A DNA stretch of 48,905 nt from contig CABXNH010000006.1 of the NCBI GenBank assembly GCA_902513495.1, positions 1-48,905 on the forward strand. Direction: 5' to 3'. A program made the translations under genes and the position numbers. The notes below the pieces were generated by a model. The model was given only the letters and a program-made list of their open reading frames with translations, did no database searches and was not told the origin of the DNA. The stretch is from an uncultured Gammaproteobacteria bacterium (GTDB taxonomy: Bacteria > Pseudomonadota > Gammaproteobacteria > PS1 > Pseudothioglobaceae). Positions 25,523 to 34,161 of the stretch are shown here, piece by piece; the first letter of the stretch is position 1; each line of letters opens with the position of its first letter.

Positions 25523-26173
25523 GTGGCAACTTCAAAACAAACGATGCCTAAAGAGAAGGGCGTATCGATCATTGACAAAAACCTCCCTTCTTTTGGGAGT
25601 GATAAGCAGCTCGAGGCCTCGATAGGTAAACAGGTTCGCATAGCCAGAAAAAATGCCGGCGTCACTCTGCAGCAGCTCTCAAAGCAATCTCTTTTGTCTG
25701 CCAGTATGCTCTCTAAAATTGAAAACGGCCAGATCAGTGCCTCACTCAAAACAATTCAACTCATTTGTCACGCACTCAACATCTCGATTACCTCGCTCTT
25801 CAAGCAGCACGACAAAGATGTTGAGCCAACTTTCATCAAGTCAGGGAACGGCTTGACGATTGAAAGGGCTGGTTCAGATGAGAGTCGACACTATCAATTA
25901 TTGGGGCACACAGTCGGCGGCTCTCTCAACGTTGAGCCTTGCTTGATTACGATTACATCAAGAGATTATGAATTTCCAGAATTTCAACACAAAGGCGTTG
26001 AGTTTATTTATATGCTTAAAGGTCAGATGGATTATTATTATGGCACTAAGATCTATCACTTTAAAAAAGGAGACTCCCTGTACTTTGACTCTGACAAGCC
26101 TCACGGCCCTAAAAAAATAATCACTGACGAGTGCCAATTCCTTACGATTATTTGTACGAATAATTCTGATTAA
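25523..26173 (+). CDS. XRE-cupin transcriptional regulator
   Basis: 216 residues. The N-terminal HTH (about 30-90) reads VRIARKNAGVTLQQLSKQSLLSASMLSKIENGQISASLKTI, given here as two adjoining blocks: VRIARKNAGVTLQQLSKQS and LLSASMLSKIENGQ. The C-terminal cupin (about 140-210) contains FQHKGVEFIYMLKGQMDYYYG and DSLYFDSDKPHGPKK. This PuuR/SinR-cupin architecture usually senses small amines, amino acids or their gamma-glutamyl derivatives. The start is GTG at 25523, with no close alternative before the helix except ATG 25544. It lies directly upstream of the gmaS promoter, so it is the obvious candidate regulator of methylamine assimilation, or of the upstream betaine methyltransferase. The ligand is unknown. 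Confidence 0.85.
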   Translation: MATSKQTMPKEKGVSIIDKNLPSFGSDKQLEASIGKQVRIARKNAGVTLQQLSKQSLLSASMLSKIENGQISASLKTIQLICHALNISITSLFKQHDKDVEPTFIKSGNGLTIERAGSDESRHYQLLGHTVGGSLNVEPCLITITSRDYEFPEFQHKGVEFIYMLKGQMDYYYGTKIYHFKKGDSLYFDSDKPHGPKKIITDECQFLTIICTNNSD

Positions 26174-26322
26174 TTTAAATACGTAGCCTAGAACACAATT
26201 TTTTTGTTCACAATAAACTTCCTCAAGTAAGCGATCAAATCAGTTTTTTTTTTATGTTTTTTTGTTCTTTTTTAGAAGAAAAATTACACTTCATTAAATT
26301 TCTTTAAAATAAAAAAAATTTC

Positions 26323-26352
26323 TTGACAATGGATTATCATTAGGAGTATACT
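26323..26352 (+). promoter_or_regulatory. Sigma-70 promoter of gmaS
   Basis: TTGACA (26323-26328), an 18-bp spacer and TATACT (26347-26352): both hexamers at or one mismatch from consensus. Transcription would begin near 26358-26360, exactly before the first strand of the predicted leader structure. Confidence 0.8.
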
Positions 26353-26360
26353 CCACCCAT

Positions 26361-26443
26361 AATTTACTGAAACACTCATTTTTTGAGTGGATATTTGAGT
26401 TACCTAAATAGACACTTATAGGTATCTATATAGTCAGTAAATT
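26361..26443 (+). ncRNA. Candidate structured leader RNA (three-way junction) of gmaS
   Basis: Closing stem P1 is a perfect 10-bp pairing, AATTTACTGA (26361-26370) with TCAGTAAATT (26434-26443). It encloses P2, CACTCA/TGAGTG (26373-26378, 26384-26389, loop TTTTT), and P3, TACCTA/TAGGTA (26401-26406, 26419-26424). The structure begins at the predicted transcript 5' end and is followed, 58 nt on, by a terminator-like hairpin. The layout resembles a riboswitch or attenuator. It does not show the conserved words of the known glutamine (glnA) or glycine riboswitches as I know them. Hand-folded only. Confidence 0.45.
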
Positions 26444-26501
26444 GATCTGGTTTTTATTTGGGTTTATTGTTTACAAATCTAAATAAAACCTGCTAGGGGG
26501 C

Positions 26502-26534
26502 AAATCTTTATTAAAGATTTTTTATTATTTTTTC
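26502..26534 (+). terminator. AT-rich hairpin with T-run in the gmaS leader (possible attenuator)
   Basis: AAATCTTT (26502-26509) pairs with AAAGATTT (26513-26520) and is followed by TTTATTATTTTTTC, immediately before the ribosome site. An upstream AAATCT (26475-26480) could compete for the 3' arm, giving an anti-terminator option. The stem has little GC, so termination strength is doubtful. Confidence 0.4.
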
Positions 26535-26545
26535 GGAGAGATTAA

Positions 26546-28024
26546 ATGACAGATTTAGAACAACACGTTAATGAACCTGGACGCGATAAACTTGTTAAAG
26601 AAGTTAAAGCTAAAATCGACGCTTTGGGTGTTACATATGTATATTATCAATTTGTATCGGTTACTGGACGCATTGTCGGTAAAGGTATTCCCGCTCGTCA
26701 CTGGGAGCGATTAGCTGAAAAAGGGTTTCAGTTGGTATACGGATCTACTGCAAACTTATTTATCGACCGTCACGGTGACTACATCGGATATGGTCCAGAA
26801 GCATCAGAGCTTGTCGGTATCCCAGATCCAGAAACTTTTTGTCAACTACCTTGGGACAAGAGAGTAGCGCGCGTGTTCTGTAGACTCTATAGAAACCGTG
26901 AAGAGCGTGAAAATCCAGGGGCAGCATTAACCTCTGACTGTCGTGGTAACTTACACAGACAACACAAAGAATTCCAAGACCAATATGGTTTAGATATGCG
27001 TTGCGGAACTGAGCCAGAAATGATGTGGCTTAAGCGTGGTGATGATGGTGCACCAAATGGCGGTGTTACCAAGCCAAACTGTTACCACATCGATCAGTTT
27101 GAAGAGCTTCGACCAGTATTCATGAAGGTGATTGAATATTCAGAGCAAATGGGTCTTGATATTATTCAGGGTGACCATGAAGATGCGCCAGGCCAGTTAG
27201 AGCTTAATACGCAGTTTGATGACGTCCTCAGAAATGCCGACCGTCTAACAACGTATCGTCAGATTTGTGCGCAAGTGGCACGTGAATTTGGCCTCATTGC
27301 TTGCTTTATGAGTAAACCTTTTATGGGTGTGTCGGCTTCAGGTTGTCACCACAACATGTCTCTATGGAAGGGCGGAAAGGATGTCTTTCATCCAGAAATT
27401 GCTTCTGGCGATGGTGAGCTTCCTGGTATGGCTGGTTGCTTTACTTACAGAGAGGGTGGCGAAAATACATTTATGCCGGACCCATCGATCGATGAGAAGA
27501 TGCCAGGTCCTATTGGCCTGAACTCAATTGGTGGTGTTATTAAACACTTACCAGCACTAACTTCAATTGGCTCTTCTACAGTTAACTCTTATCGCCGTTT
27601 ATGGGATACAGGTTTCTGGGCACCAATCTTTGCGGACTGGGGCTACCAGAACCGTACCTGTGCACTTCGCGTTTCAGCGCCAGGGCGTTTCGAGTACCGC
27701 TCGGTTGACTCGATGGTCAACCCTTACTTAATGGGCTCAGCTCTATTAAAAGCAATGGGTGATGGTATTGATAACAATATCGATGCGGGTGAACCCGAAG
27801 AGAGAAATATTTATGCAGCTATGGAGGCGGGTAAAGACGTTACCAAGCTTCCTATGTCATTAGGTGATGCGATGACTGAACTTGCAAATGATGAGGTCAT
27901 TAAATCTGCTATGCCAGATGAAATGTACAAGGTTTACCACCATTACAAGACGGATGAGTGGGAGCGTTTCAATCACACAGTTACAGATTGGGATATGGAG
28001 ACTTATTTGGATTGCTTGCCATAG
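26546..28024 (+). CDS. gmaS: Gamma-glutamylmethylamide synthetase (glutamine synthetase family, GlnT type)
   Basis: 492 residues. A glutamine-synthetase fold protein that ligates methylamine to glutamate with ATP, giving gamma-glutamylmethylamide, the first step of the indirect methylamine pathway. An N-terminal beta-grasp region (about 30-110) precedes the catalytic domain with CGTEPEMMWL (metal Glu), GDHEDAPGQLELN (about 211-223) and the ATP-site run ASGCHHNMSLW (about 269-279); further Arg/Glu ligands lie in CALRVSAPGRFEYRSVDSMVNPYL. The fusion of GS features with this long form matches GMAS/GlnT, not housekeeping GlnA. Synteny with mgsABC directly downstream strongly supports the assignment. 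It has its own promoter and leader upstream and a terminator-like hairpin downstream, which should raise its transcript over the mgs genes. It should act in the cytosol. Confidence 0.93.
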   Translation: MTDLEQHVNEPGRDKLVKEVKAKIDALGVTYVYYQFVSVTGRIVGKGIPARHWERLAEKGFQLVYGSTANLFIDRHGDYIGYGPEASELVGIPDPETFCQLPWDKRVARVFCRLYRNREERENPGAALTSDCRGNLHRQHKEFQDQYGLDMRCGTEPEMMWLKRGDDGAPNGGVTKPNCYHIDQFEELRPVFMKVIEYSEQMGLDIIQGDHEDAPGQLELNTQFDDVLRNADRLTTYRQICAQVAREFGLIACFMSKPFMGVSASGCHHNMSLWKGGKDVFHPEIASGDGELPGMAGCFTYREGGENTFMPDPSIDEKMPGPIGLNSIGGVIKHLPALTSIGSSTVNSYRRLWDTGFWAPIFADWGYQNRTCALRVSAPGRFEYRSVDSMVNPYLMGSALLKAMGDGIDNNIDAGEPEERNIYAAMEAGKDVTKLPMSLGDAMTELANDEVIKSAMPDEMYKVYHHYKTDEWERFNHTVTDWDMETYLDCLP

Positions 28025-28053: not shown

Positions 28054-28079
28054 TGCCCACCTAGCGGTGGGCAATTTTT
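28054..28079 (+). terminator. Rho-independent terminator-like hairpin between gmaS and mgsA
   Basis: The perfect 8-bp stem TGCCCACC/GGTGGGCA (28054-28061 and 28066-28073) with loop TAGC is followed by ATTTTTA. It is placed 30 bp after gmaS and 26 bp before mgsA. It probably lets part of the transcription read through and makes gmaS more abundant than mgsABC. Confidence 0.8.
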
Positions 28080-31666: not shown

Positions 31667-31748
31667 GGGGAGGTTTTGAGAGATCTAATCTCTTTAATTC
31701 CTCTCCTTAGTTTATCGGCGCCTCACCCCCTGAGGTGCTGAATAAACT
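31667..31748 (+). terminator. Tandem hairpins after the mgs operon
   Basis: Hairpin one: GGGGAGG (31667-31673) with CCTCTCC (31700-31706), enclosing AGAGAT/ATCTCT. Hairpin two: AGTTTAT (31709-31715) with ATAAACT (31742-31748), enclosing GCGCCTCA/TGAGGTGC around CCCCC. Neither has a clean T-run, so they may protect the mRNA 3' end as much as terminate. They lie upstream of the tdm promoter and so outside its transcript. Confidence 0.5.
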
Positions 31749-31863: not shown

Positions 31864-34161
31864 ATGAGAGTTTCAAATATTAGATACAGTGGTGATTGTG
31901 AAACCTACCAAATTCTAGGTGGTGAGGCAATCTCGATTGATTTAAAAAGTGGTGATTCAGTTGAAATAGTTGACGTTGAGGGAGATCAACAGTGTAGTGT
32001 TCTTGCGTTTGATTCTAAAAAGTCATCAGCCCTATCTTCCCTAAGTTGGGATACAAAGCCTAATCATTCTACTTCCATTTCCTCAGGTGATTGCTCTGAG
32101 ATGCTTAAAGCGATCCTTGATGGTAAAAAAATTAAATCAAAAGATTTTCATGCAACAGAGCTGTTTTCTGAGTCCAGTCCTGCAGATACCCGACAATCCT
32201 TTCATATTAATGATGACCTGTTATGTGTGTTTGATGCAGAGGGCGGCCCAATGCTTGTGGATCAACAAAATTCACCTACAGAAATTTTAATCAACGTCTC
32301 TCGTTCAAATCCAACGATTCCATCTGAGCGTTTACCAGAGCCGTTGGCAAAACCAACAAAAGAGATCAGAGTTAAAGATAGTTCTGCAGTTGCCTACAAA
32401 GTAAAGGCGGGCGAGTACATTCAAATTATTGATGTAGAGGGTCAGCAGTGCTCAGATTTTCAGGCGTTTTTAGAGGAAGACCTTAATAATAATTCAGAAC
32501 TCTGCCTTGATCCAACGGTTACTCGGTCCCAGATGCTAGCCAGTTACCCGGCACCTGGAACGCACGATAAGTTTTATAATCAAAACTCCGTTCCCCTTGT
32601 AGAGGTTATTCAGGATACGGTTTGTCGACACGACACATTTGGATTGGCCTGTAACGCTAAGTACTATGAAGATCGCGGCTTTCCTGGCCATATAAGCTGT
32701 ACGGATAACTTTAATTCTTCTCTAGCAGAGTTCGGCGTAGCACCAAGAAGAAACTGGCCAGCCGTTAATCTCTTTTTTAATACAGCGATAGAAGAGTGCC
32801 ACTCGCTCAGCTCAGACGTTTCTTGGTCAAGACCAGGAGATTATGTTTTATTGAGGGCGGTTGCTGATTTGGTATGCGTGTCCTCAGCGTGCCCAGATGA
32901 TACAACTTCAGCAAATGGCTGGAACCCAACAGATATTCATGTTAGGATTTACGACAAGTCCAATAATTTTCCATCGGCAACGGCTTTTAGACCTGACCCA
33001 CAATCAATTCCGACTATGACAAAAGAAACTGGTTTTCATAAAAATACTTCGAAACTAACTAAAAACTTTGACAACTATAACGGCTATTGGCTACCACTTG
33101 AGTTTACCAACTTGGGAGTAATCAAAGAGTATTGGCAATGCCGTGAAGGGGTTGTGATGATTGACCTGGCTCCACTGAGAAAATTTGAAGTCTACGGGCA
33201 GGATGCTGAAGCATTAATGCAATACGCAATCACCAAAGATGTTCGTAAACTTGCTATTGGTCAGGTTGTCTACTCCGCTATGTGCTATGACAACGGCTGC
33301 ATGGTCGATGACGGAACCCTTTTCCGTCTTTGTGAAAATAATTTCCGATGGATCGGCGGCTCAGATGATGGCGGCAAATTACTCAGAAAAATTGCTGAAG
33401 ATCGCGGCCTAGATGTGAGAGTTAAGTCTTCTACCGATCAGCTTCATAATGTTGCAGTTCAGGGGCCGAAAAGCCGAGAGACTCTAGCAAAAATCATCTG
33501 GACACCTAAATTACAAACTAATATCGAAGACCTTAAATGGTTTCGATTCACGATTGGAAGGATTGGCGGAGAGTTTGGTATTCCGGTCATGGTTTCAAGG
33601 ACCGGTTATTCAGGAGAGTTAGGGTATGAAGTTTTTGCCCACCCGAAGGATTGTGAGTCAGTTTGGGATGCAATTGCTGAGGCTGGAGAAGAGTTCGGGA
33701 TTTGTCCTTTAGGATTAAATGCCCTCGACATGCTTCGCATTGAAGCAGGATTAATCTTTGCTGGCTATGAGTTTTGTGACCAGACCGACCCGTTTGAGGC
33801 TGGGATCGCTTTCACTGTTCCTTTGAAAACAAAAGAGGATGATTTTTCTGGAAAAGAATCTTTAATTCTTCGTAAGAATTCCCCACAAAGGGTTCTTGTT
33901 GGGTTAGAATTAGATTCTAATGAAGTTGCACTCCATGGAGATGGGGTGTATATTGGGAAACAACAGGTTGGAATTATTACAAGTGCAACGCGTTCGCCAA
34001 TACTCAAAAAGAACATTGCGCTATGTAGAATCTCAGTTTCTGCGTCAGAAATTGGCAACGAGGTTGAGGTTGGAAAGCTCGATGGACACCAAAAGCGTAT
34101 ATCCGCAAAGGTTGTCCGATTTCCGTTTTACGATCCTGAAAAAACTCGCGTAAGAATGTAG
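31864..34161 (+). CDS. tdm: DUF1989-GcvT fusion, probable trimethylamine N-oxide demethylase
   Basis: 765 residues. Two DUF1989-like stretches form the N-terminal part: a degenerate one (about 1-140, SGDSVEIVDVEGDQQCSVLAF) and a fuller one (about 170-370, VKAGEYIQIIDVEGQQCSDFQAF to SACPDDTTSANGWNPTDIHV, with several Cys/Asp/His suited to metal binding). A GcvT tetrahydrofolate-binding domain (about 395-765) follows, with LTKNFDNYNGYWLPLEF, SRTGYSGELGYEVFAHP and LGLNALDMLRIEAG. This order matches Tdm of Methylocella and roseobacters, which splits TMAO into dimethylamine and formaldehyde, with the C1 unit available to folate. It has its own promoter and precedes a TmoXVW-like importer and folD, the neighbourhood expected for Tdm. 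A related DUF1989-GcvT demethylase with another substrate remains possible. Confidence 0.78.
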   Translation: MRVSNIRYSGDCETYQILGGEAISIDLKSGDSVEIVDVEGDQQCSVLAFDSKKSSALSSLSWDTKPNHSTSISSGDCSEMLKAILDGKKIKSKDFHATELFSESSPADTRQSFHINDDLLCVFDAEGGPMLVDQQNSPTEILINVSRSNPTIPSERLPEPLAKPTKEIRVKDSSAVAYKVKAGEYIQIIDVEGQQCSDFQAFLEEDLNNNSELCLDPTVTRSQMLASYPAPGTHDKFYNQNSVPLVEVIQDTVCRHDTFGLACNAKYYEDRGFPGHISCTDNFNSSLAEFGVAPRRNWPAVNLFFNTAIEECHSLSSDVSWSRPGDYVLLRAVADLVCVSSACPDDTTSANGWNPTDIHVRIYDKSNNFPSATAFRPDPQSIPTMTKETGFHKNTSKLTKNFDNYNGYWLPLEFTNLGVIKEYWQCREGVVMIDLAPLRKFEVYGQDAEALMQYAITKDVRKLAIGQVVYSAMCYDNGCMVDDGTLFRLCENNFRWIGGSDDGGKLLRKIAEDRGLDVRVKSSTDQLHNVAVQGPKSRETLAKIIWTPKLQTNIEDLKWFRFTIGRIGGEFGIPVMVSRTGYSGELGYEVFAHPKDCESVWDAIAEAGEEFGICPLGLNALDMLRIEAGLIFAGYEFCDQTDPFEAGIAFTVPLKTKEDDFSGKESLILRKNSPQRVLVGLELDSNEVALHGDGVYIGKQQVGIITSATRSPILKKNIALCRISVSASEIGNEVEVGKLDGHQKRISAKVVRFPFYDPEKTRVRM

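Follow-up and report, generated by a model that had tools for sequence, protein, structure and literature searches.

Does the long, folded leader in front of the gmaS gene of an uncultured gammaproteobacterium sense a metabolite, as its riboswitch-like appearance suggested in an initial annotation, or does it serve the gene in another way? The DNA analysed here, hereafter the window, comprises 48,905 nucleotides and represents contig 6 of an incomplete 1.2-Mb genome, in which genes for a betaine-homocysteine methyltransferase, an XRE-cupin regulator, gmaS, mgs-like proteins and a TMAO demethylase follow one another. The gmaS-mgs genes bring the nitrogen and carbon of methylamine into abundant ocean bacteria; a leader conserved across a genus in front of them offers a concrete and testable layer of control, and the adjoining XRE-cupin gene provides a candidate regulator of the promoter. 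The locus contains the following:

25523 to 26173, forward strand: gene for an XRE-family helix-turn-helix and cupin regulator (Pfam HTH_3 and Cupin_2 above cut-off)
26546 to 28024, forward strand: gmaS, glutamine-synthetase family (PF00120, 276 bits)
28054 to 28073, forward strand: GC-rich hairpin separating gmaS from the mgsA-like gene, with arms TGCCCACC and GGTGGGCA, followed by ATTTTT
31864 to 34161: TMAO demethylase gene, over its NCBIfam cut-off

The identification of gmaS as the gene for gamma-glutamylmethylamide synthetase is by context, the best NCBIfam model being that of type III glutamine synthetase, below its cut-off. Between 28100 and 31646 lie three genes resembling parts of glutamate synthase and a small gene without a family, which we take, from their context, to be mgs-like. 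In the genus 98.9% of 184 cells of the 28054-28073 hairpin are paired and an AU-to-GC swap is seen in 8 of 23 distinct rows, with a diversity of pair types not above that of shuffles; this hairpin may terminate transcription in part or stabilise a 3′ end, which would raise gmaS over mgs. Two inverted repeats, at about 31667-31706 and 31718-31738, precede the TMAO demethylase gene.

Homologues of gmaS were collected by a protein search of 95 genomes, repeated on the 29 genomes of the genus. Of 30 loci, the 24 that belong to the genus and retain a complete gmaS and upstream region were used; left out were L010, from another genus of the same family, whose leader does not align, L026, with an unrelated leader, L027 and L028, in which the gene is cut by a contig end, and L029 and L030, which are other glutamine-synthetase genes. 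The XRE-cupin gene lies 5′ of gmaS at all 24 leader-bearing loci and also in L010. The control region and the folded part of the leader are composed as follows:

26293 to 26352, forward strand: promoter, with an AT-rich upstream part carrying a TTTCTT repeat, a -35 box, an 18-bp spacer and a -10 box
26361 to 26370, forward strand: 5′ arm of helix P1, AATTTACTGA, its pairing tested in 24 sequences
26373 to 26389, forward strand: hairpin P2 (CACTCA/TGAGTG), from folding of the leader
26390 to 26433, forward strand: variable P1 interior with a weak P3, drifting at about the neutral rate
26434 to 26443, forward strand: 3′ arm of P1, TCAGTAAATT, a perfect 10-bp match to the 5′ arm
26452 to 26488, forward strand: 14-bp hairpin P4, with arms at 26452-26465 and 26475-26488

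The near-consensus promoter initially proposed is present: TTGACA (26323-26328) and TATACT (26347-26352), separated by 18 bp, agree with the consensus at 11 of 12 letters, and the hexamers and their spacing are the same in 24 of 24 relatives. Promoter-like sites in the window number 4, with 2.7 expected. Constraint extends beyond the hexamers, mean pairwise identity among the 24 leaders being 0.83 over the 30 nt upstream and 0.79 in the spacer. The consensus of the promoter alignment contains a direct repeat of TTTCTT, with copies TTTCTTtAAAAT and TTTCTTGACAAT at a distance of 20 bp, of which the latter overlaps the -35 region; it is kept in the genus, and the XRE-cupin protein may bind there as an activator. 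As the gene for this protein stands beside the promoter at all 24 loci, promoter control would be the simplest on-off switch, and we infer that the XRE-cupin protein probably exerts it. At up to two mismatches the promoter pattern has 324 matches in the 29 genomes as against 151 for a reversed control; one look-alike among the matches listed, in G006, has no pathway gene in its surroundings. Around the -10 box of the window, 26343-26354 (GGAGTATACTCC) form a perfect 12-bp palindrome, which is not so in most relatives, and GTATACTC occurs upstream of the TMAO demethylase gene as it does at the gmaS -10. The -10 box lies 186-212 nt from the ATG across leaders and, in the window, only 8 nt from P1, a position that would place the transcription start near P1.

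Near this expected start the perfect 10-bp closing stem claimed for the leader is borne out, AATTTACTGA pairing with TCAGTAAATT. P4, which was not among the elements singled out initially, proved to be one of the two best-supported helices. Together P1 and P4 are paired in 544 of 605 cells (89.9%) of the 24 leaders, whereas a tree-based null yields 468 +/- 21 paired cells and reaches 544 in none of 400 runs. In this null every column begins as the most frequent standard pair and receives, along the gmaS tree, as many changes as it has in the alignment. As the helices were chosen from the same sequences, the comparisons of paired cells with this null and with shuffled columns are somewhat inflated. 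Taken singly, P1 has 225 of 240 cells paired (null 186.7 +/- 12.5, 0/400) and P4, with 16 column pairs, 319 of 365 (null 282.6 +/- 16.6, 1/400). Shuffled columns reach 82.1% paired, with none of 500 as high as the observed value, and slid partners 37-53%. Double changes occur in 12 of 26 pairs: column pair 15-105, for instance, is GC in 11 leaders, AU in 8 and GU in 5, and column pair 16-104 is CG in 15, UA in 8 and UG in 1. On each of two structure-blind alignments, one of them made by L-INS-i, RNAalifold recovered P1 together with a portion of P4. The comparison of related gmaS upstream regions thus does yield the compensatory changes that had been sought, more weakly under a stricter test of coincident changes, which is only suggestive for both P1 (7 against 4.3 expected, 164/2000) and P4 (10 against 6.1, 102/2000).

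The leader of the window (26354-26545) folds at -45.8 kcal/mol, as compared with -31.2 +/- 3.7 for shuffles (z -3.9; 0/200), and over all 24 leaders the excess is modest (mean z -1.9); when single sequences were folded with 60 nt of coding sequence and the partner arm was sought in a single window, P1 exceeded a probability of 50% in only 12 of 24. Based on the pairing maintained through sequence change, selection very probably acts on P1 and P4 as RNA, and the leader is, by its alignment, a structured cis-acting element and a probable 5′ UTR.

Downstream of P4 the leader ends in a tail of short elements:

26496 to 26500, forward strand: G-tract, GGGGG in 21 of 24 leaders and GGGG in 3
26502 to 26520, forward strand: short AT hairpin, AAATCTTT/AAAGATTT, with 5 bp or more in 23 of 24
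26518 to 26533, forward strand: T-rich tract, U-rich in the RNA, leading up to the ribosome site
26535 to 26538, forward strand: Shine-Dalgarno GGAG of gmaS, within CGGAGA in 24 of 24

The succession of AT-rich hairpin, T-run and ribosome site was located where it had been claimed. Nearly all leaders end, with small differences, in GGGG(G), a spacer, AATCTT, a loop, AAGATT, the T-rich run and CGGAGAGATTAAATG; the hairpin has only 4 bp in L003, and the helix picked automatically in L011 is another one. Constraint is highest in the tail, whose identity of 0.84 exceeds that of the P1 arms (0.78 and 0.67), the P4 arms (0.71 and 0.73) and the four-fold degenerate sites of gmaS (0.49), all computed over the more distant 246 of 276 sequence pairs. 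The G-tract lies 47-52 nt from the ATG and, against an assumed 16S 3′ end, forms a duplex of -9.9 kcal/mol on average as compared with -6.7 for the genic Shine-Dalgarno, being the stronger of the two in 24 of 24; in folding with 60 nt of coding sequence it is on average 42% unpaired over the 24 leaders. The leader of L010 lacks this G-tract and the AAATCT arm, and has a different short hairpin (AATGT/ACATT), followed by a U-rich run and GAGGAG. An rplY-like gene at L040 1000-1083 in G032, a member of another genus of the same family, has a hairpin, a T-rich run and GGAGAG like those of the gmaS tail. The recurrence of this design in L010 and G032 speaks for a general ribosome-loading arrangement more than for a specific sensor.

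A covariance model of the leader matched the gmaS leader in 24 of the 29 genus genomes (weakest E 1.2e-19), and among the 95 genomes its strong matches occur once per genome, solely before gmaS and solely in the genus. In the other five genus genomes, gmaS is cut by a contig edge in G008 and a close gmaS was not found in G013, G015, G021 and G024, all of which are less than 80% complete. No more than 26 candidates in each genome were scored, under strict filters, so that weak copies could be missed; within this scope the best match in the 66 non-genus genomes has E 0.006, and 8 of the 66 have a match at E 0.006 to 0.94. There are further weak matches in G013 and G015, and extra short ones in G001 and G009, while G010, G022 and G023 have antisense matches to this leader; weak full-length matches fall on the rplJ (L10) leader in G013 and on the rplY-like gene in G032. 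Against the upstream DNA of 70 of the best 80 gmaS loci, three of which (L057, L063, L121) have less than 200 nt upstream, the model gave only matches of E 3.9 or more; the loci left out were nine of the genus (L043, L045-L052) and L110, which has no upstream DNA. Five other gammaproteobacterial gmaS loci (L058, L061, L062, L066, L099) have in common an upstream block of another kind, in which AATTGGT-type words accompany a GGTATA(c/a)CAT box, perhaps the mark of another regulator family for gmaS. By these searches the leader, a probable structured 5′ UTR, is limited to the genus.

Comparison of the leaders thus reveals a constrained promoter, two helices, P1 and P4, in which pairing is preserved, and a tail in which the sequence itself is. 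The explanation that we favour, to which we give about an even chance, is that the leader is, in this one genus of marine Gammaproteobacteria, a 5′ UTR of the gmaS-mgs methylamine operon that stabilises the mRNA and loads ribosomes, with the switching done at the promoter. The GC hairpin past gmaS, paired throughout the genus, fits this reading. The XRE-cupin protein of the neighbouring gene would switch the promoter; P1, a few nucleotides from the expected 5′ end, and P4 would shield the leader from decay; and the tail, with its G-tract, small AU hairpin, U-rich run and GGAG, would capture the 30S ribosome close to where translation begins, with protein S1 binding the U-rich run and the anti-Shine-Dalgarno finding a standby contact in the G-tract. 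The leader would thereby set a high and mostly constitutive yield of gmaS per transcript, with no sensing of metabolites. What a purely constitutive role leaves unexplained is the interior of P1, 61-74 nt long, which drifts freely.

Among the rivals, the one that survives best, with a small though appreciable chance, is a trans-acting factor that would bind the leader and control translation of gmaS; it could be a small RNA or a protein such as Hfq, CsrA or GmaS. U-rich runs and G-tracts are typical contact sites, and the tail, which has both, shows the strongest constraint in the leader and within each genome is found mostly at gmaS: TTTTTTATTTTTTCGGAGAG, at up to two mismatches, has 25 matches spread over 22 of the 29 genus genomes, and gmaS accounts for 22 of these matches; the reversed control has 4. 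The remaining three U-run and Shine-Dalgarno look-alikes are all that the genus has elsewhere, which gives little sign of a shared regulon.

A riboswitch, in which the P1 domain would bind glutamine, gamma-glutamylmethylamide or an amine and thereby control the tail, was the tempting first reading, and we consider it clearly less probable than the trans-acting factor. It is suggested by a long, structured and covarying leader on a nitrogen and methylamine gene, and by the short arm AAUCUU, which could pair with the local hairpin or with the Shine-Dalgarno region. Furthermore, a study of Ruegeria pomeroyi describes a methylamine-catabolite signal in the cells of that bacterium, where it is read by an AraC-type protein (PMC13390433). 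The interior of P1, however, argues against such a role. Its identity is 0.43 with 17% gaps, as against 0.49 at four-fold gmaS sites, and just one column inside P1 is invariant in the 24-leader alignment, so that P1 is without a conserved core. Of the two further hairpins ascribed to it, P2 is present in the window, with altered letters in most members of two clades, and the second is weaker; the three-way junction did not hold up, as it differs between clades. Folded alone, the interior gives two hairpins in most of the clades around L001/L006 and L015-L021, whereas in L023-L025 it forms a single long hairpin and in L005, L011-L013, L020 and L022 it folds otherwise. With a shape that varies and a sequence that drifts, a ligand pocket inside P1 is not expected; one could lie in P4 and the tail, which are conserved in sequence. 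Alternative pairing between interior and tail was tried as a conserved antagonist and rejected: on average such duplexes are no better than shuffles (mean z -0.40), with z at or below -2.1 just in L011, L012, L013 and L021.

Nor do known families account for the leader. On the window Rfam 15 returned no riboswitch family at cut-off and left the leader without a match, only three chance-level matches to eukaryotic families lying near it at E up to 5; this agrees with the earlier remark that glnA-type glutamine and glycine riboswitch signatures were not seen. The glutamine riboswitch (RF01739) exceeded its cut-off in none of the 29 genus genomes, the best match reaching 22 bits against 35 and lying off the gmaS contig, and the glycine riboswitch (RF00504) had no match in the window at cut-off and none in the 29 genomes at E up to 0.01. 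Models of the TPP and FMN riboswitches were without a match in the same 29 genomes at E up to 0.001, and, as far as these four models show, known riboswitches may be scarce in the genus. Strong matches to the leader model are limited to one gene of one genus, with no second target gene. The riboswitch-like designation is hence unsupported, given the unconserved P1 core, the varying junction, the lack of a conserved antagonist pairing between interior and tail and the single target gene, and we correct it to an unlikely one.

A two-state translation switch confined to the tail has a comparably low probability. Here the strongly conserved arm AAUCUU would keep the ribosome site open when paired with AAGAUU and close it when paired with GAGAUU next to the Shine-Dalgarno, the choice being made by the P1-P4 domain via some protein or methylamine catabolite; if true, this would be a genus-specific RNA control of methylamine use. 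Both pairings of the AAUCUU-type arm, the hairpin and that with GAGAUU past the Shine-Dalgarno, can form in most of the 24 leaders, L003 having lost most of the former and L004 the latter. The hairpin is strongly favoured over the Shine-Dalgarno-side pairing (mean 0.66 vs 0.05) and GAGATTA also stands 3′ of the Shine-Dalgarno of the mgsA-like gene in most rows, so that the GAGAUU pairing may be incidental. The second AAATCT that had been noted upstream is indeed in the window (26475-26480), but the alternative pairing proposed for it is not conserved, AAATCT being found in 5 of 24 leaders, partly elsewhere, and AATCT in 9.

Equally improbable in our view is the absence of any RNA function, with the inverted repeats as DNA operators and the tail as an ordinary ribosome site. 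The constrained spacer, the TTTCTT repeat, the adjoining regulator gene and the weakness of the coincident-change test would fit it, whereas the P1 arms are 63 nt apart in the window, lie downstream of the promoter and vary in spacing between leaders. Moreover P1 pairs through both G-U and Watson-Crick changes and exceeds the tree-based null, its 22 G-U cells suiting an RNA better than an inverted repeat in DNA. Least probable of all is an attenuator in which the AT hairpin and T-run (26502-26533) would end transcription and folding of the leader decide readthrough: a hairpin does precede a long T-run, and 23 of 24 leaders have a stem of 5 bp or more there, but the stem is almost all A-U rather than GC-rich, a terminator scan found no terminator-like site, no conserved antiterminator and, by eye, no conserved leader peptide were seen (no common start codon follows the G-tract in the alignment), and the T-run abuts the Shine-Dalgarno as expected of a translation element.

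The favoured 5′ UTR, which would stabilise the mRNA and load ribosomes, has parallels in several known systems. The 5′ UTR of ompA exemplifies the stabilising 5′ stem-loops of bacterial mRNAs; the gmaS leader resembles these in having a stem at its putative 5′ end, then a hairpin and the ribosome site, and differs in that its stem, of putative stabilising effect, encloses a long drifting interior. Ribosome standby sites with S1-binding U-rich tracts are another known system. The putative upstream anti-Shine-Dalgarno contact, small hairpin, U-rich run and weaker genic Shine-Dalgarno of the tail recall them, whereas the distance to the start codon is here nearly fixed at 47-52 nt. According to one report, glnA RNAs sit before glutamine synthetase and glutamate synthase genes (PMC2864571). 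With the glnA RNA (RF01739) and Downstream-peptide motif the gmaS leader has in common its place before a glutamine-synthetase-type gene in marine bacteria, but it lacks an RF01739 match at cut-off and a conserved core, and is found at a single gene. A leader RNA of gmaS is not reported in the accessible parts of PMC13390433, PMC3160333, PMC2864571, PMC12478193 and PMC5520151, the main text of the first making no mention of riboswitch, untranslated or motif, and we found little in the literature on gmaS-mgs control outside Roseobacters. In Ruegeria pomeroyi gmaS-mgs is activated at its promoter by the AraC-type TmaR, with a methylamine catabolite as the signal (PMC13390433). Control at the promoter by a regulator encoded with the pathway is the likeness to the system proposed here; unlike the AraC-type TmaR, the gene that adjoins gmaS in this genus encodes an XRE-cupin protein.
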